Shown one piece after another: positions 2,717 through 33,279 of a DNA stretch of 64,000 nucleotides. The position numbers and the translations under genes were made by a program. The stretch's first letter is position 1; each line of letters starts with the position of its first letter. A model generated the notes under the pieces. The model saw only the letters and a list, made by a program, of their open reading frames with translations, was not told the DNA's origin and searched no databases. The stretch is taken from the NCBI GenBank assembly GCA_963575745.1, contig CAUYUJ010019348.1, forward strand, positions 547,728 through 611,727, read 5' to 3'. The stretch is from Prorocentrum cordatum. Lineage: Eukaryota; Sar; Dinophyceae; Prorocentrales; Prorocentraceae.

Positions 2717-2718
<2 letters not shown>

Positions 2719-2795
<77 letters not shown>

Positions 2796-2811: not shown

Positions 2812-2829
2812 AGAAGTTCATTGCAAGCG

Positions 2830-12106: not shown

Positions 12107-12407
12107 CTGCGGACCCTTTGCGAAAACAATGCCTCCGCCTCTGTTGGCTGGGCAAACGGTTTTTTTTTTTTTTTTTTTTTGGTTTTTTTTCTCTTTTTTT
12201 TTTTCCTTTCTTCTTCTTCTTCTTATTCACTTCTTCTTTCCCTCTCCTCTTTCTCCTTTCTTTCTCCTCTCCTCTTTCTCTCATCTCTCGCTCGCTCTCC
12301 TCTCCTCTCTCTCTCTCCTCGTCCCCTCTCTCTCTCGCTCTTCCTCCTCCTCTCCGCTCTCTCCCTGAAGAAGTCCCTCTCTGCAGCCCCTCCTCTCGCT
12401 CCCCGCT

Positions 12408-12441
<34 letters not shown>

Positions 12442-12490
12442 TCAGTCTCCTCCTCTCTCTCTCTCTCTCTCTCTCTCCCTCTCTCTCTAG
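11945..12490. repeat. Composite microsatellite: (TCC)n, (CTG)n, poly-T, (CT)n
   Basis: Successive simple repeats: TCC runs to about 12065, ten CTG units at 12072-12105, T runs at 12160-12205, then CT-rich sequence to 12488. A long open frame crosses this from 11791, but it is compositional; the retroelement ORF1 is taken from the first ATG after the repeats. Confidence 0.9.
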
Positions 12491-12645: not shown

Positions 12646-15212
12646 ATGGCCCCCGCCAAGCCGGAGCGCCGTCGCTCTTCCAAGCAGCCGCCGAGCTCAC
12701 GTCCTGCAGCTGAAGGATCCCTCCTCCAACGCAAACATGACTGCATTGCAGCCTTCAAGCAAGCGGGGTCTGACCGCCCCACAGCCGCATACAACGGGCT
12801 CGCCGAGCTGAACGCGGACGAGCTGCAGGCCACGTACGACATGCACAAGACCAACGCCAAGAAGCTCGGCAGTGCCTTGATTCGCATGTGTGCCGCCAAC
12901 CAGATCAGCTACACGCTGGATCACCACCAGCGCAGCAAGCCTAAGCGCAATGGTGGTGACACTTCCTATCCACCAGCTGCGTCCGCACGTCTTCAGGCTG
13001 CGGACGCCAAATTTATTGCCTTGGACCCGGCCTTCTGGAAGGTCCCAGTCCTGGCCGAACCCACATCACTCGACGACGGCAAGACGTACAAGCCCAGCAT
13101 CAGCCTCCACAACTACGAGAGTGGCGAGCGGCTGCTGCAGCACCATCTCGAGCAGGGTAAGCGTACCACGGGTCAGCTCGCGATCGCTGTCATGGGCCCA
13201 AAAAACGACAACTACGTTGGCACCGAGCTCGCCGTCCCCGTGCTGAAGCGCCACCCCAAGGCGCCCAATGTGGTTCACACGCACGTCCCCGTGACCGTGT
13301 ACCAGCTGGGCACCAAGGAAGTCGCCTGCACGGAAAAAGTATCCGTCGCCACCATTGATCCTGCCGACCACGTATGCTGGATTCGGGTGACCATACATGA
13401 AACCGAAGCCATCGCCGCAGTCCCCTCCATGCATCAGGCCTTCGAGGATCAGTTTTCGGGAGGCGCCCCCGTGAACGGTGGTCCACGCGCCAAGGGTCCT
13501 TTCCGAGGGGATTCCGCTCCACAGGACAAGGCGCGCCAAAACCAAACGCACAGGGAGTCTAAGAAAGACGCTCGCCGCCAGGAGCTCGACAGTCAGCTGC
13601 AGGACACCTTCAAGGCCCTTTTCCACGGCAACTTTAAAGCCGTCACTATCCTCGAACCCTGCAAAAGTCTAGGCAGGTACGGATCTGGCGTCGGAAAAAG
13701 GTCCCTGGCTGCCACTTTCTGCGTCAGTCTTCAAGCAGTTGACAAGGTCTTGGCGGGTTCGGGGCAACTCGGCGCCACCTACGACCTCAGCAACGTAGGT
13801 GCGGACGAGCCCACGGCAGACAAGTCCCAGACCGTGTGGTTCCCCGAGGACCAGCCCATCACGATGGCAGAGGCGTTCCAGAAGTCGGTGGACTTCAAAG
13901 CCCTAGGAGTCGTCAGGCACGGCAAGACAGGCTTATTGGGGATCCGTGTTGCACGTGGGTCAGACGCCGCCAAGGCCGCTGCCGTCAGCATCCGTGGCTG
14001 CGAAGCCACTCTCGCCAAGACGCGATACCGCATCACGGGCATCGCGGCACGCCATGCCACGCTGACTCAGCTTGCCAAGACTCTCACGGGCCCGTCCGTC
14101 AAATGGACTGTGAGGTCTACCACACCGCCTGGGACCCAGCCACTTCGGCGCAGTTCGCCTTAGTGCGCGCTCATCGTCCCCCACCCACATATACGGTACA
14201 GGTCGCAGGGTGCCCCATCCCGTGGAGCATCACCGAGGCCCCGTTGGCTGAGGTCGTGCCGAAGAGGGACAACGTCACCATTGTCACCCCTACCACTATC
14301 ACAGAGCCTGTGACGCCGCCCGCCCGTGGTGGCGGCTTCAGCCCCGCCACGGGCACACTCCTAACCAAAGCGGCTCAGAGCCCCTACCTCCACGACCTCA
14401 TGACTGCCACGCCCAAAGGCAAGGGCGTCGCACCGCTCCCGATCCCTAAGGAGGAGCCTTTAGCCAAGCGCCACCGATCCTCCAGCGGGAAACGCGACGC
14501 CACGCCGCACGCAAGATCACACGGCGCTCCAGGCCGCAGCTCCTCTGCCCCCCCGCACGGCACGGATGGAGCTGCCGAGCAGACGGCCGTCCAAGGACCA
14601 GGTGGGGACGGGCATGACCCGCAACCTGGCACGGGGGCGGCCGAAGGTGGGGGCCACACGGAAGGGCACGCTGACGCAGCCGCCGAGGTACCAGGCGACG
14701 TAGAGATCCTCTCATCAGAGGATGAATTCAGCGTGGCATCGCGCGAACCGAACACCCTCGGCGAACGCTTCGCTACGGCCCCTAAACTGTCAGATGCCGC
14801 TACGACCCGCATCCAACACATGGAACAACAGCACGAGCTGCTTGCCAACACGGTGGACAACATGCAGGTCCAGCTTGCGGGCGTTCTCTCATCCCAGGCC
14901 ACACTCCCGGAGCACGTTACAGGCTTGGAACGAGGGCTTGCCACCGTCGTCACTCAGCAACAGACGGCAACTACCGAAGCTGCTGCACTGCGCGGCGACA
15001 TCCAGGCCCTCCTCGGGCACCTCACAGGAGGTACCATCCACCTGCCCCAGGTGGCCACCCTCGATACCAAAAAGGAGGAAGCTGCACCAGTTGCCGATCC
15101 CGTGGCTGTCTGCGGGTGTATCGACCAGCCAGGCCAGGTCACCCCAGGGACGGGGCCCCCAGGGGCTGACAAAGGCAAAGACAAAGGGCGGGCCACACAG
15201 GAACCCTATTGA
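12646..15212 (+). CDS. Retroelement ORF1 (copy A), one 1-base deletion
   Basis: The frame starts MAPAKPERRRSSKQPPSSRP after the CT-rich leader and reads 855 residues once a single missing base near 14107 is allowed for. Copy B has AAATGGGACTG where copy A has AAATGGACTG. A basic N-terminus suggests nucleic-acid binding. The middle (about 60-480) looks globular without a family I recognise; two stretches (around 400-440 and 450-540) have an alternating hydrophobic pattern that could be RRM-like, a guess. A disordered Ser/Pro/Gly stretch follows, then a coiled coil near 710-800 (IQHMEQQHELLANTVDNMQVQL). ORF1 proteins of LINEs typically bind the element RNA and multimerise. Two hairpins of the TTCA family lie inside it. 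Confidence 0.7.
12979..13007 (+). repeat. TTCA hairpin H1
   Basis: Perfect outer arms GCGTCCGCA / TGCGGACGC, unpaired C, inner arms GTC/GGC (one G-U), loop TTCA. Inside ORF1, translated as ARLQAAD. Confidence 0.9.
14322..14354 (+). repeat. TTCA hairpin H2 (also 18785-18817 in copy B)
   Basis: Outer arms GCCCGTGGTGG / CCGCCACGGGC (11 pairs, one G-U), unpaired C, inner arms GGC/GCC, loop TTCA. Read as RGGGFSPATG in ORF1. Confidence 0.9.
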
Positions 15213-15383
15213 AGGTGCCTCAGAGGGCCCGCCTCAGCCCTCCGAGGAAGCGCCTTCAGAGGCATCCTTTCTCACTTCTCGCCGTACCTCCTCCTTGCTA
15301 TATCATGTCATTTTTGGCAGCAGCACGAGCAAGCTACCTGGTGTAGGGACACCTGTCATCTTGCTGTGGGTGTGTTTGTTGCA

Positions 15384-17263
15384 ATGTACATGAGCATGCA
15401 GGGGTACCTAAAGAAGCGTGCTGACATGCAGCTTTTGGCTCATCGCTCGCGCCGCCTGCCAGGCCTCGCCATCATGTGGCGCTTTGCTTTCAGCCCGGCC
15501 CTCCCCTCGCTCGCTGGAGCACACCCGTCTTCAGGCGGTGCGCCCCATCATGGAGGTGGGTTTCTTCTGCAGCACGTCGAACGTGCGTCCCTTTTCTACC
15601 TCTACGATGACAGCATCTACAAGTACGATCACTGCACCATCTTGGACCCGATCGTCAACGGCTCCGCTGCCGCGAGTCCGTGCAGTATTGGCCAGGCACA
15701 CAGTGGCGGCTTCAGCCCCGCTGCTGTGCCCCGCTATTGCCCTACGGGTCCACCACTCCCATGCGAGATAGGGGCGAACCCGAGGAAGACCCTGCTTTCT
15801 GGCACCTGATGATGATCCGCGCCCGGCTCATACCGTGTGCTGCGGCGTGGGCACCAGGTGAGGATAACCAGGACATGTTCTGGGCATGGCTCGAGGACTG
15901 CGTCCCGTACATCCTGGCGACGCTCCAACTGCCACAGTACGATCACCTCTTCCTTGAGGCGTCCGAGGACACCACCGACGCCCTGCGTCATCGCACCGCG
16001 GTCGACATGTGCGAGGACATCTGGCACAGAGCGGGCCCCGACAGGCAGCGCATCAACCGCAACCTCACTCGGATCCAGAGCAGCCGCGAGTACGCCACCC
16101 GCAATTTCGGCCTCCTTCTGGAGTACCAGGGCGCTCGTGCCACGCTCGTTGGCCCTGAGGCTTTCATGGCACCTTTGCCGCCATACCTCTCACGGGCCCA
16201 TGCTCTGCTGCCAAGAGGTCTCCCTCCACCCGACCAGGACGCCATGGCGTACCTCGCTGATGTTATCCTGCACCAACCGCCAGACATGCTGCCGATCGTC
16301 GAGGCGGAGCTGGCTGCGGCGCCGACGGACGGCACCGATCAGGCCGCAGAAGATCCCGTATCATGGCTGCTCCAGCACACCGCGGCCAGCGATATCGGCA
16401 ATACATCCATGGACTCGTTCCACGCGTCGGAGGATAGCCAGGACGACATCGATATCCAGGATCGAGACGGCACGATACCATCAGGCGACTCGGCTCAGCG
16501 TGACCGCGACAGTGAGCCTCACTCTGGGCTCGCCCCGTGGCAACGCAGTGCGCCCCACACCTCAGATCAGGCCGACCCTTCTGCGCGGCCTAACGACGCT
16601 GAAGGCGTCACTGCCGCTGATGTGACTAGCCATCCCACTGCTTCGCCAGCTCATGCCAGGCCGTGCAGTGGCGGCTTCAGCCCCGCTGCACCCCTGGCTA
16701 GACCTGGACATCCCCAGACCGCAGGAGGTGACAACGTGACTGACTCCAACCCCAGTGCCATCGACCACTGGCAGGCCGACATCGACAACGACCCCATCGA
16801 TGATGAACACCCAGATGCCAGCGGTCCCCACGATCCCCAGCACAGCTCAGCGGCATCACGACATTGTGGCTGCCTCATCTGCCTCCTGGTGGCCACGTAC
16901 GCCATCGCGATAGCAATGCCGTACAAGGACCATATCGATGGATACTTGCCGACCCCGAGCCGAGACCCCAGCTACCGACAACGACGACGACGCCAAGCGA
17001 CCGCACCAGGCCCATCGGTGTCCACTATATTCCGACGCAAAACGACATACTATGTCACGTCCACATTGAGGGCCACTCTCAAATGGACCAGCGACAAACT
17101 CAGAGATGGTGTCTCGGGCGGAGCCCCTGCAGTCGGGAGCGGCTTCGGGGGCGTCCTTAAATGGGCCAGCGGCAAGCTAGGGGCCATAGCCACGGGTGGA
17201 GTTGTGTGTGTCTTCTACTCGTCGGTGCCAAACTCCTTGCCCAGGGAGCTGTCGGACACGTAG
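15384..17263 (+). CDS. Retroelement ORF2 (copy A), one 1-base deletion
   Basis: Starting at the ATG MYMSMQGYL, the frame gives about 626 residues if one missing C near 15750 is allowed for; copy B is intact there. Residues 40-110 include FLLQHVERASLFYLYDDSIYKYD. A region near 130-330 looks globular and helical (DPAFWHLMMIRARLIPCAAAW). A disordered acidic stretch follows. The C-terminal ~130 residues have a hydrophobic segment CLICLLVATYAIAIAM, which could span a membrane, then a basic stretch RQRRRRQA and VFYSSVPNS. I recognise no family. The last 103 bases overlap ORF3 in another frame. Three TTCA hairpins lie inside it. Confidence 0.6.
15519..15543 (+). repeat. TTCA hairpin H3 (also 19980-20004 in copy B)
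   Basis: Outer pairing CACC / GGTG, extended past one A/C mismatch by GC/GC; unpaired C, inner arms GTC/GGC (one G-U), loop TTCA. Confidence 0.75.
15696..15729 (+). repeat. TTCA hairpin H4 (also 20157-20190 in copy B)
   Basis: Outer arms GCACACAGTGG / CCGCTGCTGTGC with one bulged C and one G-U; unpaired C, inner arms GGC/GCC, loop TTCA. Read as SGGFSPAAV in ORF2. Confidence 0.85.
16663..16691 (+). repeat. TTCA hairpin H5 (also 21125-21153 in copy B)
   Basis: Outer arms GTGCAGTGG / CCGCTGCAC (9 pairs, one G-U), unpaired C, inner arms GGC/GCC, loop TTCA. Read as CSGGFSPAAP in ORF2. Confidence 0.9.
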
Positions 17264-18352
17264 GCGCCCGCATATGTGCGCGGGCCCTGGACTCATCCAC
17301 TGCCCACTGGTGCTTCCGCTGTTGCCAACCGAGCAGGAAGCCGAAGGACGAGGCCACACACAAAATGCCGTGCACGCTCGCCGACGAACACGACGACCAG
17401 CAGGTGCACGCACTCCGACATCCGCTGCTACAGGAACACTACGCCGCAGCTGTTGCCGCAGCAGTCGCCGACGTCACCACCGCCACCACCGCCGCCATCG
17501 CTGAAGTCACTGCCGCCGTATCGCGAACCTCGTCTATCACACCAAGATCGACCGGCCCGACGCCACGAGACGGCTCCAAGAACGGCACGACATTCGGTAA
17601 CCTACCGACCAACGAGGATGCCACAGCACACGGTAGCGACACCGAGCCAAGGGAAACGAGAGAACGCACCCATGGCAGCCCGTGGTCCATCTTCCGACAT
17701 GCTGACGCTCGTGGTTCCTCCCCCGACGCGGACACCCAACCACCACGACGGCGAGCACGCTATGCATCACTTGACAGGCCCCAGGCGCCTTCAGGCCCTG
17801 GTACGCCTTACACTGCCCTCAAGCCACCGACACGCAACCCACGCAACACCATCCAGCGTGACCCAGCGGTCCCCGAGCCGCCGAAGAGCATACTTAACGC
17901 ACTGTACCAAAACGGCTTCGCGCTAGGGAACAGTGGCGTGTCCACTGAGGACATCAAAGACGCTCTACGACTCCACGACCACCCTCGATTCACTCACGAC
18001 CCAACACTCCAAGTGCTGGGGCCGTGGACGGACATCATGCAGAGGCCACCGAACCGCCTCACTTGGGTGCTGGAAGACTCGGGCGGCAACTCGGGCGAGA
18101 CAATTTTCCCATACCTTACGTGGGACCTCCGTCAACCCACCACCGACGCGCCCACTGTTTTCTGGCATGGGACCCGCGGCGACCTTGCGGCCCGTCTTGC
18201 TGCCTGTGGAGGGCACCTCTTGCCAGGCCCCCGCCGTGAAACGAAGGGTCGAACTGGCACCAACGTTGGCCGCACGCACGTGAGCGTGCACCCTTCGCTG
18301 GCCGCGTGGTACGCGATACCGCCCCACCCGCCCAACAGTCTCGAAGACGACA
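17161..18352 (+). CDS. Retroelement ORF3 (copy A), cut off by assembly gap
   Basis: Same start (MGQRQARGHSHGW) and 397 residues nearly identical to ORF3 of copy B, then interrupted by the gap. At the codon matching Tyr373 of copy B this copy has CAC (His) at 18277-18279, so a suspected catalytic-type Tyr differs between copies. The 5' 103 bases overlap the end of ORF2. Confidence 0.75.
17781..17801 (+). repeat. TTCA hairpin H14 (also 22242-22262 in copy B)
   Basis: Outer arms CCAGG / CCTGG, unpaired C, inner arms GCC/GGC (swapped relative to most members), loop TTCA. Read as QAPSGPG in ORF3. Confidence 0.85.
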
Positions 18353-18452
18353 NNNNNNNNNNNNNNNNNNNNNNNNNNNNNNNNNNNNNNNNNNNNNNNN
18401 NNNNNNNNNNNNNNNNNNNNNNNNNNNNNNNNNNNNNNNNNNNNNNNNNNNN
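18353..18452. other. Assembly gap (100 N)
   Basis: Exactly 100 N, the usual placeholder for a gap of unknown size. Reading frames crossing it have no meaning. Confidence 0.99.
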
Positions 18453-19673
18453 TCCGTGGCTGCGAAGCCACCCTCGCCAAGACGCGATACCGCATCACTG
18501 GCATTGCGGCACGCCACGCCACGCTGACCCAGCTCGCTAAGACTCTCACGGGCCCGTCCGTCAAATGGGACTGCGAGGTCTACCACACCGCCTGGGACCC
18601 AGCCACTTCGGCTCAGTTTGCCTTAGTGCGCGCTCATCGTCCCCCACCCACATATACGGTACAGGTCGCAGGGTGCCCCATCCCGTGGAGCATCACCGAG
18701 GCCCCGTTGGCTGAGGTGGTGCCGAAGAGGGACAACGTCACCATTGTCACCCCTACCACTATCACAGAGCCTGTGACGCCGCCAGCCCGTGGTGGCGGCT
18801 TCAGCCCCGCCACGGGCACACTCCTCACCAAAGCGGCCCAGAGCCCTTACCTCCACGACCTCATGACTGCCACGCCCAAAGGCAAGGGCGTCGCACCGCT
18901 CCTGATCCACAAGGAGGAGCCTTTAGCCAAGCGCCACCGATCCTCCAGTGGGAAACGCGACGCCACGCCGCACGCAAGATCACACGGCGCCCCAGGCCGC
19001 AGCTCCTCTGCTCCCCCGCACGGCACGGATGGAGCTGCCGAGCAGACGGCCGTCCAAGGACCAGGTGGGGACGGGCATGGCCCGCAACCTGGCACGGGGG
19101 CGGCCGAAGGTGGGGGCCACACGGAAGGGCACGCTGACGCAGCCGCCAAGGTACCAGGCGACGTCGAGATCCTCTCATCAGAGGATGAATTCAGCGTGGC
19201 ATCGCGCGAACCGAACACCCTCGGCGAACGCTTCGCTACGGCCCCTAAACTGTCAGATGCTGCTACGACCCGCATCCAACACATGGAACAACAGCACGAG
19301 CTGCTTGCCAACACGGTGGACAACATGCAGGTCCAGCTTGCGGGCGTTCTCTCATCCCAGGCCACACTCACGGAGCACGTTGCAGGCTTGGAACGAGGGC
19401 TTGCCACCGTCGTCACTCAGCAACAGACGGCAACTACCGAAGCTGCTGCACTGCGCGGCGACATCCAGGCCCTCCTCGGGCACCTCACGGGGGGTACCAT
19501 CCACCTGCCCCAGGTGGCCATCCTCGATACCAAAGGAGGAAGCTGCACCAGTTGCCGATCCCGTGGCTGTCTGCGGGTGGATCGACCAGCCAGGCCAGGT
19601 CACCCCAGGGACGGGGCCCCCAGGGGCTGACAAAGGCAAAGACAAAGGGCGGGCCACACAGGAACCCTATTGA
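18453..19673 (+). CDS. Retroelement ORF1 C-terminal part (copy B), frameshifted
   Basis: The copy begins inside ORF1 at the end of the gap and reads through the position where copy A lost a base (VKWDCEVYHTAWDPATSAQFALV). It then has a 2-base deletion in an A run near 19537 (three A instead of five), which puts the last ~45 codons out of frame; the expected end KDKGRATQEPY lies at 19673. Together the two copies show one intact ORF1. Confidence 0.75.
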
Positions 19674-19844
19674 AGGTGCCTCAGAGGGCCCGCCTCAGCC
19701 CTCCGAGGAAGCGCCTTCAGAGGCATCCCTTCTCACTTCTCGTCGTACCTCCTCCGTGCTATATCATGTCATTTTTGGCAGCAGCACGAGCAAGCTACCT
19801 GGTGTAGGGACACCTGTCATCTTGCTGTGGGTGTGTTTGTTGCA

Positions 19845-21724
19845 ATGTACATGAGCATGCAGGGGTACCTAAAGATGCGTGCCGACATGCAGCTTTTGGC
19901 TCATCGCTCGCGCCGCCTGCCAGGCCTCGCCATCATGTGGCGCTTAGCTTTCAGCCTGGCCCTCCCCTCGCTCGCTGGAGCACACCCGTCTTCAGGCGGT
20001 GCGCCCCAGCATGGAGGTGGGTTTCTTCTGCAGCACGTCGAACGTGCGTCCCTTTTCTACCTCTACGATGACAGCATCTACAAGTACGATCACTGCACCA
20101 TTTTGGACCCGATCGTCAACGGCACCGTTGCCGCGAGTCCGTGCAGTATTGGCCAGGCACACAGTGGCGGCTTCAGCCCCGCTGCTGTGCCCCGCTATTG
20201 CCCTACGGGTCCCACCACTCCCATGCGAGATAGGGGCGAACCCGAGGAAGACCCTGCTTTCTGGCACCTGATGATGATCCGCGCCCGGCTCATACCGTGT
20301 GCTGCGGCGTGGGCACCAGGTGAGGAAAACCAGGACATGTTCTGGGCATGGCTCGAGGACTGCGGCCCGTACATCCTGGCGACGCTCCATCTGCCACAGT
20401 ACGATCACCTCTTCCTTGAGGCGTCCGAGGACACCACCGACGCCCTGCGTCATCGCACCGCGGTCGACATGTGCGAGGACATCTGGCACAGAGCGGGCCC
20501 CGACAGGCAGCGCATCACCCGCAACCTCACTCGGATCCAGAGCAGCCGCGAGTACGCCACCCGCTATTTCGGCCTCCTTCTGGAGTACCAGGGCGCTCGT
20601 GCCACGCTCGTTGGCCCTGAGGCTTTCATGGCACCTTTGCCGCCAGACCTCTCACGGGCCCATGCTCTGCTGCCAAGAGGTCTCCCTCCACCCGACCATG
20701 ACGCCATGGCGTACCTCGCTGATGTTATCCTGCACCAACCGCCAGACATGCTGCCGCTCGTCGAGGCGGAGCTCGCTGCGGCGCCGACGGACGGCACCGA
20801 TCAGGCCGCAGAAGATCCCGTATCATGGCTGCTCCAGCACATCGCGGCCAGCGATATCGGCAATACATCCATGGACTCGGTCCACGCGTCGGAGGATAGC
20901 CAGGACGACATCGATATCCAGGATCGAGACGGCACGATACCATCAGGCGACTCGGCTCAGCGTGACCGCGACAGCGAGCCTCACTCTGGGCTCGCCCCGT
21001 GGCAACGCAGTGCGCCCCACACCTCAGATCAGGCCGACCCTTCTGCGCGGCCTAACGACGCTGAAGGCGTCACTGCCGCTGATGTGTCTAGCCATTCCAC
21101 TGCTTCGCCAGCTCATGCCAGGCCGTGCAGTGGCGGCTTCAGCCCCGCTGCACCACTGGCTAGACCTGGACATCCCCAGACCGCAGGAGGTGACAACGTG
21201 ACTGACTCCAACCCCAGTGCCATCGACACTGGCAGGCCGACATCGACAACGACCCCATCGATGATGAACACCCAGATGCCAGCGGTCCCCACGAGCCCCA
21301 GCACAGCTCAGCGGCATCACGACATTGTGGCTGCCTCATCTGCCTCCTGGTGGCCACGTACGCAATCGCGATAGCAATGCCGTACAAGGACCAGATCGAT
21401 GGATACTTGCCGACCCCGAGCCGAGACCCCAGCTACCGACAACGACGACGACGCCAAGCGACCGCACCAGGCCCATCGGTGCCCACTATATTCCGACGCA
21501 AAACGACATACTATGTCACGTCCACATTGAGGGCCACTCTCAAATGGACCAGCGACAAACTCAGAGATGGTGTCTCGGGCGGAGCCTCTGCAGTCGGGAG
21601 CGGCTTCGGGGGCGTCCTTAAATGGGCCAGCGGCAAGCTAGGGGCCATAGCCACGGGTGGAGTTGTGTGTGTCTTCTACTCGTCGGTGCCAAACTCCTTG
21701 CCCAGGGAGCTGTCGGACACGTAG
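19845..21724 (+). CDS. Retroelement ORF2 (copy B), one 1-base deletion
   Basis: Same protein as copy A. This copy is intact across the site broken in copy A (CPTGPTTPMRDRGEPEEDPAFW) but lacks one C near 21229, after which the last part continues in another frame to RELSDT at 21724. Hydrophobic and basic C-terminal features are the same. Confidence 0.65.
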
Positions 21725-23844: not shown

Positions 23845-23898
23845 CTCTGGGCACCGACCCAAGTCCACGTTAAGGGGGACGACTCCTGGCGCACCGTC

Positions 23899-26800
23899 AT
23901 GGTACCAGCGGATATGGGGCCCCAGTGGATCAGGTGCCATGCCGAGGACGCACGCCTCCCCGCCGAGGTAGTCCGCAATACAGGCCAATCCTGGTTTGCC
24001 GACGTCTGGCCCTTGTGGGATCGCCCGAGACCCCACCCAGACGACCCAGGCACAAACGAGCATGCGCTACCGCCCTTACCAGGACGCTGGTCTTGCCTAC
24101 AGTGTCGATTCCAATGCTGCCAATATTGCGCGGCTCGCCGCAACACACAGCTTGGCCCCTCGGGCCAACCAACGTGCCCAGACTGCGGCCGCAGCGGACT
24201 GCGTACACTTATGGACTGGTCCACGGACTACTCGTGCAACAGTTGGACGTGTGCATACAGCACCAATAAGAGGGACTCCGACACATGCTGCCTGTCCAGC
24301 AGGTGCCCCCACCCCCCCAGGCCACACAACCAGCTCGACGTCCGTGCCACAGGGATGCCGCCGCACATCCTTGCCCGCCAATTCGGCAACGCGCCAGCCC
24401 TCCACGACCTCAAGGAACCCCCCCGAGCGCCTTCAGGCCCCGGGGGAGAACCTCCACAACCAGGGCAAGTAGGCTACCAGGGCCAATGGTACCTCCCACC
24501 ACAGCCGCGGCGCGTCCCCAGGCAGGGATTGCCTGACGGCACAACGCGGCCACCTGGATTCACAGGAACGGGGATGCCCGAAGAACCTTCCCCCGACCAA
24601 CCGCTTTGGAGGGAAGGCTATGTGCTCTTCAGCCCCCATCAGGCCCTCAAGGAGGAACTTACCTTCAACAAGACGGTCCGCCGACCCTTCTCCCTAGCCA
24701 TTACCAACATGTACAGGGATCGTGTCACGGCCAGGACCGTCTGCGAGTTGATCGCCGAGCGCACCCACATGACCCGCACCCGCTGGCGAGATGTGGTACT
24801 GTACTGGGACGCCGAGGGTGGTCCTGGGCCTCAAGCTCTCGACTACGATATGCGACTCTGTGACGCCATGGTGAGCCGTGCCACGACCGAAGCTGAGCTA
24901 AACCACGACCGCAGCAACCGTGGTAGTTTCTGCCTCTATGGACCAGCGCACCAGCGGGCCATCAACATTACGGCGATCTCAGAGCCGCAGAACATCGACT
25001 ACACGGAGCATGTGCGACGATACTCACCCGTAGGGGGGACCTACCCTGACCACGCCTTCGAGCACGTCTATCGGGGCTGGCAGCGGCCCGACGTGCCCAC
25101 CATCCTCCCCGACACCCGTCCCCTCTCGAGAGCCGACTGGCAGCGTCACCAACAGCACCAGCAGCGCATTCAGCAGCGGGACCAACGTGACGCAGGACAG
25201 CAGGGCACACCACGCTACCGCTCCCCTGCGCGAGTCCCGACAGGCGGTAACACGGCCTACGACGGGGTTGCCGCCTACCACCGTGGTCCCATAGGTGCCA
25301 TGCCTGCGGCTGCTGGAGCAGCCGCCTCCAGCTACGGCCAAGCCCCCAACGCCAGGGTTCACCCAGCGGCCATCGGCTACTCGCGTGCACCCCTACATGC
25401 CCTAAGGGCCACCTCGCCAGTGCCAGGGTCCACGCGCGCCTGGGGCCTTTACTCAGGCCGACATGAGGGCCCCTCCAGCAACCAGCCTGCAGTGATAACC
25501 CCTGCGGCTTCAGCCCAGGGGGCTGCAACAAACCGTGGCAGGGCTGGGCGCCCCGAAGGATGGCGCGATGCGAACGTGCGCGCTTGGCAACCGCGCCAGC
25601 ACACGCCCCCGCCAAACGTAGCTGCAGCACTGCGCCCGGCCCAGGCCAAACCTGCCCCACCTGCGCGGGAGAGGCAGCCGCTCACCCCGCTCGTCCTCAC
25701 GCGCATCCAGGCGCATCGCAGCGCCTCCCCGAGGCACAGCGAGGGAAGCGCCCACCACGTCAGCCCCCGCCCAGACGCGGCTGACCCCGACCAGGCCACA
25801 GCCACGGCGGAAGGCGGCACAAGCGCCTCTCGCCAGCCCAGCCCATCACCCTGCGCGGCGCCGATCCGATCCCCGAGCAGGGCGGATTCTGAGCGCGCTA
25901 ATGCCCAGGCGACTTCGCCACGCGACCGTCACACGGGCGGGCGCGTCCCGCGCAGCAGGACCTGCAGCCGCCACAGTTCACGCAAGGCCCCAGGGAGCTC
26001 CACGAGCTCGCCGCCTCGCGAGACTCAGGCCGATGGCCGACCCCCCGAAGTGGTGCCACGCTTCGGAGCCAGCGTCATCGACCCTAGCCAGGTCGACCTC
26101 GAGCCGACGCCGTCCACGGACCACGAGCCGCAGCTGCCCACCCGCGTGATCGTCCCCATCGACGAGGCGCCAACCTTCGACCCGTTCAAGAACAAGTACC
26201 GTGTCAAGAACCTTGTGGCGGGTTTTGGCGGGGGCTCACCGCTCTCACCTCAGAGTCGGGGCGGTGCCCCCGCCACCTCGGCTGCTGCCGCGGCAGCTGC
26301 GGCCCCGCGGGGAATCAGCCCTGTCCGCAACGTGGGCCTCACGGCAGCGGGCATGGACGAGGCCCAGCGTCAGGCCTCCGATCGTGCTGCTGGAGCCGTT
26401 CCACCAGATGCTGCTCATCAAGACACTGACGGGGCGGGCGTGTCACCGCAGAAGGGACCAGCGGTGGCGCGTGCGCAGTACATGCGCGTGCGTTGTGCCG
26501 CCGCCGCGCCTGGCCGCCGCCGCTGTCTCGCTTTTGTCTTTGTGTTCGGCAGGATGGATCGAGGAGTCGCCTCCCTCTCCCACTGCTGCCGTCTCACTTC
26601 TCCTCCCCTCGTCCCCTATAGTACAGGAGTGAGGAGGAATTTTCGTGACATTTTTACTAATATTTATGAACCCCCCCTGGCGCAGTGCCGACCGTGTCCC
26701 TCCTATATGGTTGGCCTGACGGCGGCTTCAGCCCCGATCAAGCTAGCCCATAGTAACGCCATGAGCTCCTACTGTGGCCAAGCCTCCTACTGGGGCGAGG

Positions 26801-29800
26801 GTCAAGCTGACCTTCACCGTGCGGGGCGCGCAAACCCCAGTTCCACCGATGGAGACGGGCCAGGTCGCTCCATACACCTCGTCAGCCTTAACATCACCAG
26901 TCTCTCAGCGAACTGGCCAACCATCACCGCCCTTGGTGTCGACCACAACGCCGCTGTCATAGCACTGCAGGAGACCCGACATGCCAAGCCGACTAGGCAA
27001 GCCATCGCTACCAGCGCCGCCAATCCTCTCCACGGTGGATACCACGCCAGTCTTGGGCCTGACCTTGATCTGGCGCGAGCCCAGCGCAGAGCTGCCCACG
27101 GCGGCACTGATCACACCGTTGTGGGCAACACTGGCGCCTCGGGAGGGGTCGCCATTCTCTCTAAGGATGCCATCGTCGACTCCACTGTCGACGACAATGC
27201 GCCCTGTATCGCCGCCCTCAAGGCCAAGAAAAGATGGCATGAGGTCTTTCTCCCACTCTGCACTCAACACCGCCGTAGGCGGCGACGAAATAACCATGGG
27301 CCCGCGGGGATCTACATAGCGAGCCTTTACGGGATTGCTGGAGGAGACAGCACAGCTCTCTTTCGGCTCGCTGACTGTGCCGCCGCTAGGGTCGGCTCAG
27401 CACCCTACTTCATCTGCATGGACGCCAACACGAACATTGACGACAATCCACACCTTCTGCACATGTTGCAGCACGGATGGTCCAACGTCGCTGAGGGCAC
27501 ACCAGACCACACCATGCACACCTATGGCAATATCCCTGATTGGGACCGCGTCACCAAGTGCCCCCGCACTTCGCGCATCGATTATATCATTGCCAACCAG
27601 GCGGCGCGATCCCTTGTCACCGACTTCTGCTACCTTCGCGACTTGCCTGCGAAGTCTCACGTTGGCCTGCAGGTCACGCTTGACCTCAGTCGCCTCGACC
27701 ATACGGCCCGACGTCTTCTTGCCCCTACGCCCTACCCGCCCGACGATGGAGTTCATGAGGGGCACGAGCTGCAAGCACTTGGGACCCTCATCGCTGGGCG
27801 GTACCAGGACCGCATGGAGCAGGCCGACGCACGAGACGACGTGGAGCGCATGTTCACCCTGGCTAACGAGGCCAGTCATGAGTACCATCTCACCCGTCTA
27901 CGCGATCTGCCACCTCCACCGCCCCACCCCCCAAAAAAGAAGCCCCCCACCATGCACGGGCTCACGCCTACGTTCGAGGATCGACCGGTTGTCCCCCGCG
28001 CGTTCCCCACCTACGGAGCTTCCACGATTCACATGAACCGACTGCGCAAGCTCCATCGGCAACTCTGCGAGCTCCGTTTCATCGGACAGCACCACCATCT
28101 AGATTGCCGTGCCATCCCGCCGTACCTCGCGCAGCGCATCGACTGCACGTGGGCCGCGGCCCGCCTCTTATGCCACAAGCTGCGCCCCACGGTTCTCCTG
28201 GAATTCCCTGAGGCCTGGGCCCCAGACGAGCCAGTGCCGCACGGGGAGCACCTTGACGCTTTGATCCAACATCTCGACTTAGAGCTGGCGCGACGCGCGA
28301 ACCGTGCCAAGGCGGAACGCATCAGGATATGGGCCGAGGGCGTCCGTGAGCCAAGCGGGCGAAAGGCGGCCATATACGCACGAGCTGCTGATAGCTCGCC
28401 CACGGCGTATCTCCGCACGCCTACCACTCCTGACGATACGCAACTCCACTGCGACACCAACGCCTTCAAACCTGACGAAGCTTGCACGGACGACAGCGAC
28501 GCTGACACCGAAGCTGGCGGCTTCAGCCCCGGCGACGGTAGTTCGCCCGACACGGACAGCGACGAAGACCACACCCGTGAACCACCACCTGCGCAAGTCC
28601 CCGACATCCTCCCTGCCAACGCCATTGTTGCTAACATCAAGGACATGCTGAAGCTCATGGTCGACACCTGGGAGCCCATCTTGGGCAGGTACCGTGCACG
28701 TGCGGGACATGATGCCGAAGCCATGCCGACGTGGGCCGACTTCTACGACGAGTACCGACAGGAGCTGCCTACGCCATCACCAGCTACCCCTTTCCACCTC
28801 ACCGACGACCAACTCATCCACTTCATTCGCACCCGTTCACCGAGACGCGCGGGGGGTCTGGACGGTTGGACTACTAAGGAGGCAAAGGAGCTTCCCGACG
28901 ACATTCTTCGCCTCTTCGCCAGCGTTCTACGAGCTATGCAACGCACTGGCACCATCCCAGAACCCCTCCTCCACGTCCCAAACCCGTGCCTCCGAAAAGG
29001 CCGAGGCGAACTCCCAACGGACCAACGACTTCTCTCGGTGCTTTCCGTTTGGATGTACGCGTGGGAAGCACCAGCTTACCGCAGCCTCACGGACTGGCGG
29101 AAAGGATGGACCCACGCCACGAGTTTTGGCGCTGTCCCCAAAGCTACCATTGGGGACGTCAGCACTTCTCTCGCCCTTCGCATCGAACACGCCAGAGCCC
29201 TTCTCCTTCCCTTGGCTGGAGCTGCCCTGGACCGTCAGAAGTGTTTCGACTATCTCATCACGGACATATGCCTTAACCTCGCGCTTCACGCGGGGTGTCC
29301 CCAAGACATCGTTACTGTCCGCAGAAACTTCTACAGGCGCCACAAACGTTACATCCGCATGAACGGTGCGTACTCTAAGGAACTGGCCAGGACAAACGGT
29401 CACCTCCAGGGAAGCTCTTGGTCCCTGGACGACATTAAGCTGCTCATGTGCGTCTGGACCAAGAGACAGCATCGTTACGTGCCGCGGTCACTCAGCACTA
29501 CTTTTGTTGACGACAGCAACTCCACTACCCACACCGCGCCCGAGTTGCAGAAATCTCTTGATGAAACCGCCAAGTTTGATCGATTTTCTGGTCAACGCAT
29601 TCATCCTGGAAAAGTGGCGGGGTGGGCGCTTACTGACGAGCTTCACACCGCCGTTACCCAGCTCACCTTGGCGGAACGGCCCTTACGCGTGGTCGACTCC
29701 TTCAAGCTCGTCGGAAGTTACATCAACGCCGAGGCAGCGCCGGCTCCAGCCGCGCTCAACCTCACGGCCACCGCTGACGCCCGTGTTCGCAGGGCGACTA

Positions 29801-32589
29801 GTCGCCTGCCGCGTATTGGCAAGCTCCCATCTCCGATGCGTATTAAGGCGCGGCACGCCCGCTCCCTTGCTGCCAGCGTCTGTACCACGGGCACTGACAT
29901 CCAAGCCCCATCAGGCCCCGTCAAAACTGCCTACAACCATGCCCTTAAGGCGGCTATCCGCCCCAAGGGAAACAGGTGGGTCGAGTTTTGGACTCTCATG
30001 GCCGTGTGCGTCCCAGGGCACGCCCTGGAGATTGACGCCATTATGCAGCGTGAAGTCTTCCTGTGCCTGCGGCGACAGGTCAACCGCGACGCCACTCTCT
30101 GCGGCCTCGTCAGGGATCTCCAACACCATGTCCAGACCCTTTTTGGCGGAGGACCTGTTGGACGACTTGTTCAGACGCTTCAGCAGCTCCGTTGGACTTG
30201 GCCCACATTTGGCACCATGTACGACGACTGGGGCTGTCAGATCAGTTGGCTGAACCTTCCCCAAAACGCCTTCCTTCACATGCTGCGCGCCTCGCAACGC
30301 AGAGCCTTTCTGAGAAAAATCAAGCCACGGCGTCATGACCTTGGACACCTAGCTTCGGTCAGACAGGGCCTCGACCTTTTCGCCAGCACGTGGCTCGCCC
30401 GCACCAAAGGAGCTGCCAAATGCAACGCATGGCAGCTGGCGCTCCTCTTAAACTACCTGTCGGGCGGGGACCACACCCAACAGCGACGTTCTCGATCAAA
30501 TACGTCCGCTGATCCCAGCCCTATTTGCCGTTACTGTGATGAGGAAGAGGAAACTCAGGAGCACACTGTGCGTGACTGCAAGTGCTGGGCCCGTGAAAGA
30601 GTCCCTCTCACCACCCTCATCAGTGACGAGCAGTGGGCCCGTCTTCCTCCGCACACAAGACATTGCGGGCTCTTCGATGAGGACCCAGCCCTCCTCGATC
30701 TGCAAGCCGACCTCGCGAGGGACCCGCTACCTCAACCCATACCGCGGCCCCCGCCTGAGGGAGATCCTGCGGCTTCAGCCCAGGACTCCTACACCACTTA
30801 CCTTGACCACGACACTGGTTGGACATGGGTCTACGCTGCCACGGACGGTGCATGCACCAACCAAGCCATCCCTTTGCTTGCAAGAGCGGGCTACGGCGTC
30901 TACTACGGCATCGACCACCGCATGAACTACAGTGCGCGCGTTCACGGCATCACGCAGAACGCACAGCTTGCGGAGACCCTCGCCATTGTCCACCTCACGG
31001 CATGTGCTGAACGGCCCGTACACGTCTTCGTGGACAACCAGGCGGTGGTCGACGGCTTCCAAAGGATCATCGACGGACACTCACCTCCGCAGGGCACGCA
31101 CGTGGAGTTCTGGGAAAAGGTCCACCGATGTGTCATGGCCAAGCCAAACATGTTCCGCGTAGAGAAAGTCGCTAGCCACCAGGGCGACACGGGCATCGAC
31201 CTCGGACTCATCGGGCCCATCGCGGAGGAGTTCAATCGTCAGGCTGACGCCCTCGCCACAGCGGCGACACGTACTCATAACCTTCCAGACGACATCGTTG
31301 AAGCTGCCAAAGCACGACACCGCCAAGCGACCGTGCTCCATGGAGTCGCCGTTGCCATCTACGAGCGGAGACATCGTACACTTCCTCTCCCACACCGCAG
31401 GGCTGGGTTCACTGCTGCAGAACTAAACAAAATGGAACCAAATCCCCTGCTGTCTGACCAGGCTCCACCCGCGGCTGGACCAGACATCCCACAAAACCCC
31501 GACGAGCTCTGGGCCGAGGCCCAACGGGTGTTATTCGACGAACAGGAGGACGACCCGTTCGGCTTTGGTGGAGGTTTGGACTTCCTGGGCGACGAGTCAG
31601 CCAGCGCCAACCCTGCCCCGGCGGGCACCCGCACGGCGCCCCCGACTCCGCCATTGAGTGCGTCAGCCCACCCACATGACAACGCCGTTCCTTTTCAAGA
31701 CGCTGATGAGCAGGACGATGACCTTTTCAGCCTCGGTGGGGGATCGGACGCTTTGGACGACGGACCAGCCAACGAAAACCCCGCCCCGTCGGGAAACCTC
31801 GCAAACCCTACTGCGACGCCGTCCCCAAGAGCGTTAACGCCCACATACGACGATATCGGTCACCGCCAAGACGCCGACCACGACCCGAGTGCCCCCCGAG
31901 GATTGGGTGGCATTGAGGACGCACCGCCGACACCACACGCTGCCGACCATGCCGCCCCACCGAGTCACCAACCCTCTACGCGACCGACCTCAGCGGCCTT
32001 GCACGGCATCACGACTGGTCCCACCGCGCATACCACTCCGCCTCCCCATCGTCAGCGACCCGCGGGGGCGGCTTCAGCCCCCCCGCAGGGTACTAAACCA
32101 GACAGGCCCTCGTGCCCCACCCACGCTTCCTCCGTTGCTGAGCGAGAGGAAGCGGCTCCCCTGACCTCTCGGGGCGCGGCCCTAGCGGCTCCAGCCCTGG
32201 GGTCGCGCCGGCCCCTCCAGTCACCTTTTAAGGGTGACGGACGTCAGCGTTCAGGGTCCCGCACGCCGCTAGCCCACCTGGACAGGCGTACCGAGGACCT
32301 CGCCTCTGTCTCGAGATCCTCGGCGGATGTCACTGAGCAGCCACCTCTCACCGACCGTGAAACCGAGCTGTCACAGGCTATGGCTGCCCTTCAGCAGAGG
32401 TGCTTAGCTCTCGCCGCGGACCTCGCCGCTGCCCAAGCTCGTCAAGGTCCTCTACTCCAGCGCCTCCACAGCGCTGGGCGAGCCTTCGCCGAGCTGCTCA
32501 CGACCTCGCCCGATGGTGTCGTGCCGTCACTCAACATCCAAGCTATGTTGTCATCGTTCCGCGGCGCTCCACCTGGTGCCCCGCGCTAA
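23899..32589 (+). CDS. Retroelement ORF4: endonuclease - reverse transcriptase - zinc knuckle - RNase H polyprotein
   Basis: A single 2,896-residue frame. Residues 60-130 are Cys-rich (WSCLQCRFQCCQYCAARR..CPDCGRS), probably zinc-binding. About 130-980 is mostly disordered. The AP-type endonuclease spans about 985-1265: Glu1025 in LQETRH, Asp1175/Asn1177 in MDANTN, Asp1228 in RIDYI, His1254 in SHVGL. Reverse transcriptase, about 1640-1940: motif A Asp1778 (ALDRQKCFD), QGSSW, and FVDD with Asp1871/1872. Zinc knuckle from Cys2210 (CRYC..H..C). RNase H, about 2305-2460: Asp2316, Glu2359, Asp2379, Asp2450. The tail has a duplicated acidic motif and a coiled coil near 2820-2870. All catalytic residues are present, so the copy could be active. 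The enzyme would nick DNA and reverse-transcribe element RNA at the nick. Seven hairpins lie inside. Confidence 0.92.
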   Translation: MVPADMGPQWIRCHAEDARLPAEVVRNTGQSWFADVWPLWDRPRPHPDDPGTNEHALPPLPGRWSCLQCRFQCCQYCAARRNTQLGPSGQPTCPDCGRSGLRTLMDWSTDYSCNSWTCAYSTNKRDSDTCCLSSRCPHPPRPHNQLDVRATGMPPHILARQFGNAPALHDLKEPPRAPSGPGGEPPQPGQVGYQGQWYLPPQPRRVPRQGLPDGTTRPPGFTGTGMPEEPSPDQPLWREGYVLFSPHQALKEELTFNKTVRRPFSLAITNMYRDRVTARTVCELIAERTHMTRTRWRDVVLYWDAEGGPGPQALDYDMRLCDAMVSRATTEAELNHDRSNRGSFCLYGPAHQRAINITAISEPQNIDYTEHVRRYSPVGGTYPDHAFEHVYRGWQRPDVPTILPDTRPLSRADWQRHQQHQQRIQQRDQRDAGQQGTPRYRSPARVPTGGNTAYDGVAAYHRGPIGAMPAAAGAAASSYGQAPNARVHPAAIGYSRAPLHALRATSPVPGSTRAWGLYSGRHEGPSSNQPAVITPAASAQGAATNRGRAGRPEGWRDANVRAWQPRQHTPPPNVAAALRPAQAKPAPPARERQPLTPLVLTRIQAHRSASPRHSEGSAHHVSPRPDAADPDQATATAEGGTSASRQPSPSPCAAPIRSPSRADSERANAQATSPRDRHTGGRVPRSRTCSRHSSRKAPGSSTSSPPRETQADGRPPEVVPRFGASVIDPSQVDLEPTPSTDHEPQLPTRVIVPIDEAPTFDPFKNKYRVKNLVAGFGGGSPLSPQSRGGAPATSAAAAAAAAPRGISPVRNVGLTAAGMDEAQRQASDRAAGAVPPDAAHQDTDGAGVSPQKGPAVARAQYMRVRCAAAAPGRRRCLAFVFVFGRMDRGVASLSHCCRLTSPPLVPYSTGVRRNFRDIFTNIYEPPLAQCRPCPSYMVGLTAASAPIKLAHSNAMSSYCGQASYWGEGQADLHRAGRANPSSTDGDGPGRSIHLVSLNITSLSANWPTITALGVDHNAAVIALQETRHAKPTRQAIATSAANPLHGGYHASLGPDLDLARAQRRAAHGGTDHTVVGNTGASGGVAILSKDAIVDSTVDDNAPCIAALKAKKRWHEVFLPLCTQHRRRRRRNNHGPAGIYIASLYGIAGGDSTALFRLADCAAARVGSAPYFICMDANTNIDDNPHLLHMLQHGWSNVAEGTPDHTMHTYGNIPDWDRVTKCPRTSRIDYIIANQAARSLVTDFCYLRDLPAKSHVGLQVTLDLSRLDHTARRLLAPTPYPPDDGVHEGHELQALGTLIAGRYQDRMEQADARDDVERMFTLANEASHEYHLTRLRDLPPPPPHPPKKKPPTMHGLTPTFEDRPVVPRAFPTYGASTIHMNRLRKLHRQLCELRFIGQHHHLDCRAIPPYLAQRIDCTWAAARLLCHKLRPTVLLEFPEAWAPDEPVPHGEHLDALIQHLDLELARRANRAKAERIRIWAEGVREPSGRKAAIYARAADSSPTAYLRTPTTPDDTQLHCDTNAFKPDEACTDDSDADTEAGGFSPGDGSSPDTDSDEDHTREPPPAQVPDILPANAIVANIKDMLKLMVDTWEPILGRYRARAGHDAEAMPTWADFYDEYRQELPTPSPATPFHLTDDQLIHFIRTRSPRRAGGLDGWTTKEAKELPDDILRLFASVLRAMQRTGTIPEPLLHVPNPCLRKGRGELPTDQRLLSVLSVWMYAWEAPAYRSLTDWRKGWTHATSFGAVPKATIGDVSTSLALRIEHARALLLPLAGAALDRQKCFDYLITDICLNLALHAGCPQDIVTVRRNFYRRHKRYIRMNGAYSKELARTNGHLQGSSWSLDDIKLLMCVWTKRQHRYVPRSLSTTFVDDSNSTTHTAPELQKSLDETAKFDRFSGQRIHPGKVAGWALTDELHTAVTQLTLAERPLRVVDSFKLVGSYINAEAAPAPAALNLTATADARVRRATSRLPRIGKLPSPMRIKARHARSLAASVCTTGTDIQAPSGPVKTAYNHALKAAIRPKGNRWVEFWTLMAVCVPGHALEIDAIMQREVFLCLRRQVNRDATLCGLVRDLQHHVQTLFGGGPVGRLVQTLQQLRWTWPTFGTMYDDWGCQISWLNLPQNAFLHMLRASQRRAFLRKIKPRRHDLGHLASVRQGLDLFASTWLARTKGAAKCNAWQLALLLNYLSGGDHTQQRRSRSNTSADPSPICRYCDEEEETQEHTVRDCKCWARERVPLTTLISDEQWARLPPHTRHCGLFDEDPALLDLQADLARDPLPQPIPRPPPEGDPAASAQDSYTTYLDHDTGWTWVYAATDGACTNQAIPLLARAGYGVYYGIDHRMNYSARVHGITQNAQLAETLAIVHLTACAERPVHVFVDNQAVVDGFQRIIDGHSPPQGTHVEFWEKVHRCVMAKPNMFRVEKVASHQGDTGIDLGLIGPIAEEFNRQADALATAATRTHNLPDDIVEAAKARHRQATVLHGVAVAIYERRHRTLPLPHRRAGFTAAELNKMEPNPLLSDQAPPAAGPDIPQNPDELWAEAQRVLFDEQEDDPFGFGGGLDFLGDESASANPAPAGTRTAPPTPPLSASAHPHDNAVPFQDADEQDDDLFSLGGGSDALDDGPANENPAPSGNLANPTATPSPRALTPTYDDIGHRQDADHDPSAPRGLGGIEDAPPTPHAADHAAPPSHQPSTRPTSAALHGITTGPTAHTTPPPHRQRPAGAASAPPQGTKPDRPSCPTHASSVAEREEAAPLTSRGAALAAPALGSRRPLQSPFKGDGRQRSGSRTPLAHLDRRTEDLASVSRSSADVTEQPPLTDRETELSQAMAALQQRCLALAADLAAAQARQGPLLQRLHSAGRAFAELLTTSPDGVVPSLNIQAMLSSFRGAPPGAPR
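24420..24446 (+). repeat. TTCA hairpin H7
   Basis: Outer arms CCCCCGAG / CCCGGGGG with one A/C mismatch, unpaired C, inner arms GCC/GGC (swapped), loop TTCA. Read as RAPSGPGG in ORF4. Confidence 0.8.
25499..25521 (+). repeat. TTCA hairpin H8
   Basis: Outer arms CCCCTG / CAGGGG (perfect), unpaired C, inner arms GGC/GCC, loop TTCA. Read as TPAASAQG in ORF4. Confidence 0.9.
26615..26690 (+). other. A/T-rich in-frame segment inside ORF4
   Basis: This stretch (CCTATAGTACAGGAG..TTTTTACTAATATTTATGAA) is much richer in A/T than the rest of ORF4 and translates to an atypical peptide (RRNFRDIFTNIYEP). It lies between the disordered region and the endonuclease, where many LINEs have an ORF boundary. 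It may be a former inter-ORF junction that is now open. Confidence 0.5.
26717..26740 (+). repeat. TTCA hairpin H9
   Basis: Outer arms TGACGG / CCGATCA with one bulged A, unpaired C, inner arms GGC/GCC, loop TTCA. Read as LTAASAPI in ORF4; the weakest outer stem of the set. Confidence 0.7.
28507..28539 (+). repeat. TTCA hairpin H10
   Basis: Outer arms ACCGAAGCTGG / CCGGCGACGGT with a two-base internal mismatch and one G-U; unpaired C, inner arms GGC/GCC, loop TTCA. Read as EAGGFSPGDG in ORF4, between endonuclease and RT. Confidence 0.85.
30765..30785 (+). repeat. TTCA hairpin H11
   Basis: Outer arms TCCTG / CAGGA (perfect), unpaired C, inner arms GGC/GCC, loop TTCA. Read as DPAASAQDS, in the linker between zinc knuckle and RNase H. 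Confidence 0.85.
31545..31800 (+). repeat. Duplicated acidic motif in ORF4 tail
   Basis: Two copies of a DD.F.(F/L)GGG.D.L.D...A..NPAP.G pattern, about 165 bases apart, follow RNase H. They look like short linear interaction motifs in a disordered tail. Confidence 0.7.
32058..32091 (+). repeat. TTCA hairpin H12
   Basis: Outer arms ACCCGCGGGGG / CCCCCGCAGGGT with one bulged A, unpaired C, inner arms GGC/GCC, loop TTCA. Read as PAGAASAPPQG in ORF4. Confidence 0.9.
32173..32209 (+). repeat. TCCA hairpin H13
   Basis: Longest member: outer arms GGCGCGGCCCTAG / CTGGGGTCGCGCC, 13 pairs with two G-U; unpaired C, inner arms GGC/GCC, loop TCCA. Read as RGAALAAPALGSR in ORF4. Confidence 0.9.
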
Positions 32590-32953
32590 TCTCCTCCTTT
32601 CTGCCTGCCCGTGTGTACGTGTGGCTCCGCGTCCACGGTGTCAGGGCGTGGGGGCGGGGGGTGCCCCGTCACTGCGCGCCGCTTAGCGGCCAAGCGCCCA
32701 ACTGGCGGTCCGCCAAGCCGCCTAGCCACGTGCCAGCACGTCGCCTTTCTTGTTGGGGCCTTTTACCTCACGCGGTCTGTCAGGTGAGATCTTCATCGTC
32801 TGTCCGCCGTCTGTAGCGTCAGTCGCACTGCGCCGGGGGAGGGGGTTTTGTAGCCCGCCCTCGTATCTTAAGGCTGCACCGCCGCAAATAGTGCTTGCGA
32901 GTTGTCGCACCGCAGTGCGCCTCGCGGACGGACCCTGGTCCGCCTACTTGTCC

Positions 32954-32956
<3 letters not shown>
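32590..32956 (+). other. Probable retroelement 3' untranslated region
   Basis: Non-coding GC-rich sequence after the ORF4 stop contains two further small palindromes: GCCGC TTA GCGGC at 32678-32690 and TGGCGG T CCGCCA at 32703-32715. It ends at a ~250-bp CT repeat. The true 3' end of the element is not marked by a poly(A). Confidence 0.5.
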
Positions 32957-33207
<251 letters not shown>

Positions 33208-33279
33208 TGCTGCCCTGTCTCCTGATCTGAGCTTCTGCTAAGTCTCCGAGAACTTCTGCCATGCAGCCTTCAGAAGGCG

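Follow-up and report, generated by a model that had tools for sequence, protein, structure and literature searches.

The window analysed here, i.e., the whole 64,000-nt stretch of contig CAUYUJ010019348.1 of Prorocentrum cordatum (assembly GCA_963575745.1) between positions 547,728 and 611,727, contains a retrotransposon of the long interspersed nuclear element (LINE) type. In window coordinates, which are used throughout, the element spans 12489-32954 (+) and is flanked by (CT)n tracts. Repeated along it is a small hairpin, first described in an initial annotation of this DNA, and the view that this hairpin is an RNA element is well supported by its structure, strand, spacing and conservation, with selection acting on the RNA. 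All hairpins share one architecture, namely an outer stem, an unpaired C on the 5' side, an inner stem of the form GNC/GNC and a UUCA or UCCA loop. The outer stems of different hairpins are unrelated in sequence, yet paired. The inner stem had been said to vary in a paired way, which holds with the qualification that the GTC/GGC form includes one U-G wobble; the core common to the hairpins is CGNC-UYCA-GNC.

A strict scan, requiring the C bulge, a 3-bp inner stem (G-U allowed), a TTCA or TCCA loop and at least four uninterrupted outer pairs, was run on both strands of the window. It returned 18 hairpins, all on the + strand and all within 12979-32209, with none on the - strand and none in the rest of the 64 kb. 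These comprise 13 distinct sites plus five inside a repeated stretch which is discussed below. A looser scan added 24420-24446, with one mismatch, and 26720-26736, with three uninterrupted outer pairs, bringing the total to 15 distinct sites at 20 places. The initial count of 14 loci and 19 copies falls between the strict and the looser figures, while the TCCA loop, reported twice, occurs at three distinct sites (23361, 29741 and 32186). The hairpins are as follows:

12979-13007 (+): hairpin 1, GTC/GGC inner stem, TTCA loop; strict and looser scans
14322-14354 (+): hairpin 2; strict scan
15519-15543 (+): hairpin 3, mismatch-free part 15522-15540
15701-15723 (+): hairpin 4, 181 nt downstream of hairpin 3
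16663-16691 (+): hairpin 5; strict scan
17781-17801 (+): hairpin 6, GCC/GGC inner stem
18785-18817 (+): copy of hairpin 2 in the repeated stretch; repeat listing and strict scan
19983-20001 (+): copy of hairpin 3 in the repeated stretch; repeat listing and strict scan
20162-20184 (+): copy of hairpin 4 in the repeated stretch; repeat listing and strict scan
21125-21153 (+): copy of hairpin 5 in the repeated stretch; repeat listing and strict scan
22242-22262 (+): copy of hairpin 6 in the repeated stretch; repeat listing and strict scan
23354-23378 (+): hairpin 7, TCCA loop
24420-24446 (+): hairpin 8, GCC/GGC inner stem, one outer-stem mismatch; looser scan
25499-25521 (+): hairpin 9; strict scan
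26720-26736 (+): hairpin 10, outer stem of three uninterrupted pairs; predicted to fold least well of the 15 in long context
28513-28533 (+): hairpin 11; strict scan
29736-29756 (+): hairpin 12, TCCA loop
30765-30785 (+): hairpin 13; strict scan
32062-32086 (+): hairpin 14; strict scan
32173-32209 (+): hairpin 15, 13 outer pairs, TCCA loop, 117 nt downstream of hairpin 14

Such a number is far above chance expectation. Across 500 dinucleotide shuffles of 12501-32700 the mean was 0.018 strict hairpins and the maximum 1, against the 18 observed, and this bears out the initial annotation's claim of a hairpin family that is confined to the sense strand of the retroelement and found nowhere else in the window. 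Codon-preserving randomisation, which had been proposed as a check, did not reach a similar number either: when eight coding segments (repeat included) had their synonymous codons shuffled 500 times, the mean was 0.228 and the maximum 3, against 17 observed in these segments. In a tally of hairpins with a 5' bulge over the window and the fetched copies, the class with a C bulge, 3-bp stem and TTCA loop was the commonest (23 distinct forms vs 11 for the next); if the tally is confined to the element, an alternative parse of these hairpins, with 2 bp in the stem and six bases in the loop, is equally common. Among 21 aligned instances (19 distinct), 92.6% of cells were paired compared with 61.8% after shuffling, a control that is not independent because the instances had been picked for the C bulge, TYCA loop and pairing. 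The covariation score of 0.745, against 0.167 in shuffles, likewise compares different hairpins picked for pairing. The first and third inner pairs were invariant in these instances, as G-C and C-G, which the selection criteria did not force. As the pair statistics come from hairpins picked for pairing, the independent evidence is the chance count together with the copies of the element.

We searched for these copies in the P. cordatum genome (4.13 Gb, 21,875 contigs). The reverse transcriptase (RT) region of the LINE gave 86 scored matches, the best of 7209 candidates, all at 100% identity, and its 16-nt 5' terminus, which is also that of the partner element described below, has 1141 exact copies vs 2 for the reversed control; part of the family was therefore amplified very recently. 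Conservation was measured in copies from eight contigs, using stretches with 77-99% identity; for the divergence and codon analyses, stretches more than 99.5% identical or shorter than 300 nt were omitted. Since the copies share ancestry, changes were counted as cells and not as events. Divergence was 0.020 in hairpin columns vs 0.078 outside. In the frame used for the codon analysis (23899-32586), synonymous changes occurred in 13 of 582 cells of hairpin codons (0.022) vs 3013 of 25,916 cells of the other codons (0.116; permutation P 0.0001), whereas the drop in the non-synonymous rate, 0.040 vs 0.061, was not significant (P 0.24). This roughly five-fold suppression of synonymous change, with no significant effect on non-synonymous change, indicates selection on the RNA rather than the peptide and agrees with the earlier statement that the motif is not a peptide repeat. 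The recognition core itself hardly changes: the bulge was unchanged in 140 of 140 instances, the loop altered in 5 of 560 cells and the inner pairs in 2 of 420 (pairs non-standard in the window were omitted, as was one of 141 rows, site 17786 in the copy on contig C21, for an indel).

The same hairpin occurs in a second, largely unrelated element. On contig C2 lies a 6,902-nt element (G000:C2:406709-413610, - strand; L010 and L011) which has the first 16 nt of the LINE and its last 360 nt (about 87-88% alike), while elsewhere its DNA matches the LINE only in two hairpin stretches of 32-35 nt. A tblastn search with the LINE proteins P0001-P0005 at 1e-3 found no match in it, and its longest frame, of 986 codons, is of unknown nature. 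A genome search with a 301-nt piece from its interior gave 40 scored matches at 97-100%, the best of 309 candidates. This partner is thus a non-autonomous repeat, with LINE termini, no LINE RT and repetition in the genome, and it seems to hitch-hike on the LINE. Six hairpins lie at 1025, 1154, 2056, 4134, 4248 and 5892 from its 5' end, two of them with a bulged A, which have nine and six outer pairs. Its two internal tandem repeats are 77-84% alike, yet the hairpins within them are identical, and in two more copies of the partner 3 of 3 hairpins were intact within the 1.4 kb read, although the flanks of one are only about 76% alike.

Along the LINE the hairpins are spaced nearly regularly, at about 1.1 kb per hairpin, a feature that the initial annotation does not mention. 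With the repeat collapsed and pairs closer than 300 nt merged, the 12 gaps measure 1029-1795 nt with a coefficient of variation of 0.168, and none of 200,000 random placements was equally even, also when a 300-nt exclusion was imposed; without merging, P for evenness was 0.000275. Thermodynamic folding with ViennaRNA in 810 nt of context, a further check proposed initially, predicts that 13 of the 15 hairpins form with a mean pair probability of at least 0.89, the exceptions being those at 15526 (0.55) and 26723 (0.31).

The hairpin appears specific to this family among the sequences sampled. Five loci of 5 kb each, taken from other LINE families in this genome, gave no match to the hairpin model at E values up to 2, and the best core there had three outer pairs. 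Over the whole genome the core CGGCTTCAGCC occurs 15,054 times vs 7,418 for its reversed control. The hairpin model finds 166 places in 257 kb, a figure that arises partly by construction, on the strand of the element copies. Isolated core matches were sampled in twelve stretches at eleven matches; those in L001-L005 and L028 had no hairpin in the strict scan, and the best model match in L148-L153 scored 18.0 bits (E 0.063). No Rfam 15 family exceeded its gathering cut-off in window 11000-34500, where the one sub-threshold match lay outside the hairpins. No relatives emerged when IMG/VR was scanned with the RT region, ORF1 or P0003. A scan there for GGCGGCTTCAGCCCC gave 115 stretches, 80 of them among the matches listed, and these stretches (1.01 Mb) held 17 hairpins with at least five outer pairs and a C or A bulge, never two per locus; having been picked for containing the core, they are a biased background.

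The carrier is a LINE of the apurinic/apyrimidinic endonuclease (APE) type, as it has an RT, an upstream AP-type endonuclease, no long terminal repeats (LTRs) and many dispersed copies. No LTRs are among the repeats listed for the window, and the element ends at (CT)n tracts. Its features other than the hairpins are:

12489-32954 (+): whole LINE as assembled, 20,466 nt; 5' terminus AGTCTCGGCTCGAGAG, 3' terminus CCTACTTGTCCG
12646-15209 (+): open reading frame 1 (ORF1), here as two overlapping frames, 12646-14160 and 13743-15209; candidate RNA-binding partner
18353-18452 (no strand): assembly gap of 100 N; sequence downstream repeats sequence from 13991 on
23845-32586 (+): last 2914 codons of the giant second frame, with AP-type endonuclease, RT and RNase H
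26872-27708 (+): AP-type endonuclease region, P0001 residues 992-1270 aligned to P0003
28789-29673 (+): RT region with FVDD, P0001 residues 1631-1925 aligned to P0003
30826-30984 (+): RNase H-like stretch, weakly matched by ribonuclease H1 chains (E 0.26)
32594-32954 (+): 3' end common to the non-autonomous element, about 87-88% alike

The direct match of the LINE RT to RVT_1 is weak (E 0.34); the assignment runs through P0003, which matches RVT_1 (E 2.3e-21) and Exo_endo_phos (E 4.4e-9) and to which the LINE endonuclease and RT are 23-26% identical. ORF1 is open in copy L010 (856 amino acids). ORF1 and the next ORF share a reading frame and are separated by one stop codon, both in the window (TGA, 15210-15212) and in the C2 copy, an arrangement that may reflect readthrough or reinitiation. 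A stretch of P0002 (21622-23841), around FWHGTRGD...GRTYVSVHPSLAAWYA, is reminiscent of ADP-ribosyltransferases; Pfam returned nothing for it. Hydrophobic, membrane-like segments, judged by eye, lie upstream of this stretch in the C2 copy. None of three LINE proteins matched a phage protein family, the best PHROG being of unknown function at E 0.061.

The assembled length requires care. Window 13991-22914 is a 4.46-kb repeat (period 4461-4463) whose halves are 94-99% identical and which holds five hairpins again, and the 100-N run sits exactly between its halves. For this reason the repeat probably arose when two contigs were joined in assembly, as an artefact, and the sides of the gap may derive from different copies of the element. 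Four other copies with both ends in view are 16.0-16.4 kb long and are without the repeat. The giant, duplicated element of the initial annotation is thus in part an effect of assembly, and the five hairpins in the repeat, which adjoins the gap and is missing from those four copies, are not separate evidence. Elements were also seen head to tail, parted by short (CT)n alone (window 12200-12490 and 32955-33210; contigs C2, C21 and C102), with about 43 nt of (CT)n between neighbours on C102, and the distance from one 5' terminus to its neighbour is in several cases about 16.1-16.4 kb. The layout looks as if insertion aims at (CT)n tracts.

The restriction to the sense strand, the repetition along the whole RNA and the presence in an element that shares only the LINE's ends argue for recognition of such RNAs by one machinery. 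We judge the chances to be evenly balanced that the roughly 15 hairpins are RNA operators bound by a protein, probably the ORF1 product, which assemble or recognise the giant LINE RNA. Each hairpin would be bound by one protein, which would read the invariant part, i.e., the unpaired base, the closing pairs and the loop U, C and A, while the differing outer stems would merely hold this core up. Many sites on one RNA could then promote cooperative assembly of an RNA-specific ribonucleoprotein, and by keeping such sites the RNA of the non-autonomous element would enter the same machinery, a mode of action like that of the dispersed packaging signals of some RNA viruses, placed inside a retrotransposon. 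A more specific proposal, to which we give rather less than even chances, is that the array is an explicit multi-site RNA code, with one protein-binding hairpin per about 1.1 kb, that packs the giant LINE RNA in a virus-like manner, and that the partner retained the code while using other stems and even another bulge base, and did so to be carried along. Among the three functions suggested initially, the evidence most favours a packaging or protein-binding site, with the binding itself still putative.

Several observations weigh against this reading. ORF1, searched in Pfam, PHROGs and PDB sequences, gave nothing credible and no recognised RNA-binding domain, and its AlphaFold2 model, built with six close copies, has a mean predicted local distance difference test score of 31 and is unusable. 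The array is known from one species only. Gaps between hairpins range from 37 to 3017 in the divergent copies on contigs C93 and C123, and from 114 to 2078 in the small element; as the C93 and C123 copies tolerate insertions between hairpins, the spacing is a tendency and no ruler. An antisense match of the strict form, with four outer pairs, occurs at the same place in L012, L014 and L020, and the C21 copy has a deletion in hairpin 17786. The hairpins at 15707, 17786, 26723, 28518 and 29741 lie at only the 27th-40th divergence percentile of 25-nt windows. Changed pair cells keep pairing in 13 of 20 cases and break it in seven, with eight of the 13 at site 28518, where the U-G pair of hairpin 11 reads U-A in eight of the nine copy rows that differ and is broken in the ninth. 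Four of the seven breaks are in the two outermost pairs; an inner pair of hairpin 12 is broken in two copies, and an outer C-G pair of hairpin 2 is compensated to G-C in two divergent copies and left as a one-sided mismatch in two others. Conservation among the copies is therefore clear, and compensation weak, as most kept changes fall at one site.

The main rival to binding by the ORF1 product is binding by a host protein which helps the element's long transcripts by exporting them from the nucleus, by shielding them from decay, from premature polyadenylation or from splicing, or by letting them evade silencing. Selection at the RNA level and the sense orientation fit it equally well, the hairpins do occur in an otherwise unrelated transcript with the same ends, and their roughly even spacing would reflect a need to cover the whole transcript. 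We nevertheless consider it unlikely, given that no model match was found in the five loci of other LINE families and no strict hairpin in the rest of the window, so that a general host pathway would serve this family alone among those sampled. Control of translation of the giant frame, by ribosome pausing between domains or as an aid to reinitiation, had also been suggested. In its favour, the coding segments examined contain 14 of the 15 LINE sites, a density of about one per 370 codons, and each of the six small-element hairpins is covered by a frame that runs without a stop for 100 codons or more. However, relative to the element's frames the hairpins occupy all three codon phases, four of the six in the small element are outside its 986-codon frame, that element encodes no recognisable LINE protein, and pausing alone would need no invariant bulge and loop, which makes this explanation improbable.

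A role as folded single-stranded DNA, e.g., in cDNA synthesis or recombination, is more improbable still: the strict strand bias would be compatible with one DNA strand as well, and copies lie head to tail, but the hairpins do not coincide with the element ends and target-primed LINE copying makes the opposite strand first. Very little probability attaches to the third function suggested initially, in which each hairpin is a miniature element spread by RNA copying. The same core does recur many times, and in the small element hairpins and their flanks are locally duplicated in tandem (129 and 114 nt apart), but the outer stems are unrelated yet paired. We looked for insertion edges by aligning copies; the hairpin of two copies aligns to a degenerate form in four others with no insertion or deletion. 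Chance hairpins in GC-rich coding sequence, or a peptide repeat, can practically be discounted, since both kinds of shuffle give far fewer hairpins, selection falls on synonymous sites and not significantly on the peptide, and the motif is translated in three phases.

Known systems offer partial likenesses. The MS2 operator resembles the present hairpin in its unpaired base on the 5' side and its four-base loop; the MS2/R17 coat operator has a bulged A, a 2-bp upper stem and an ANYA loop, compared with a C bulge (A twice), a 3-bp inner stem and a UYCA loop here. The iron-responsive element likewise has an unpaired C in the 5' arm of its hairpin, but there the C is followed by 5 bp and a CAGUGN loop of six bases, whereas the present hairpins have 3 bp and UYCA, with no Rfam match. 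LINE-1 and other APE-type LINEs encode ORF1 together with endonuclease, reverse transcriptase and RNase H; the present element differs in its size of about 16 kb, its giant second frame and its internal hairpin array. Some short interspersed nuclear elements are non-autonomous partners sharing the 3' end of a LINE, while the partner here is 6.9 kb long and also has hairpins. In mode of action, the nearest known parallel is provided by the packaging signals dispersed along the RNA of MS2 and other RNA viruses. As in the LINE, the signals described for phage MS2 and positive-strand RNA viruses are many similar stem-loops on one sense RNA that overlap coding sequence; they are, however, described as degenerate and hard to detect by sequence, whereas the bulge and loop of the LINE hairpins are nearly invariant (PMC4751978). 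Viral signals of this kind are bound by the cognate coat protein, which promotes assembly. In contrast to the viral systems, the host here is a LINE, no coat protein was seen, and the hairpin is a presumed binding site. Dinoflagellate LINEs with additional coding parts are represented by SymbioLINE-Dnmt of Symbiodinium, to which the present LINE is alike in this respect, and the main text of that report does not contain the words 'hairpin' and 'stem-loop' (PMC5890265). Unlike SymbioLINE-Dnmt, the LINE frames scanned here matched no methyltransferase. No report of such a hairpin array in a LINE was found in the open-licence literature searched.

The array combines a nearly invariant recognition core with freely differing stems, in many copies that can be compared, and the hitch-hiking partner element provides a natural control. 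How a retrotransposon picks its own RNA thereby becomes directly testable, and if the partner protein is found, the hairpin would be a new RNA-protein tag.

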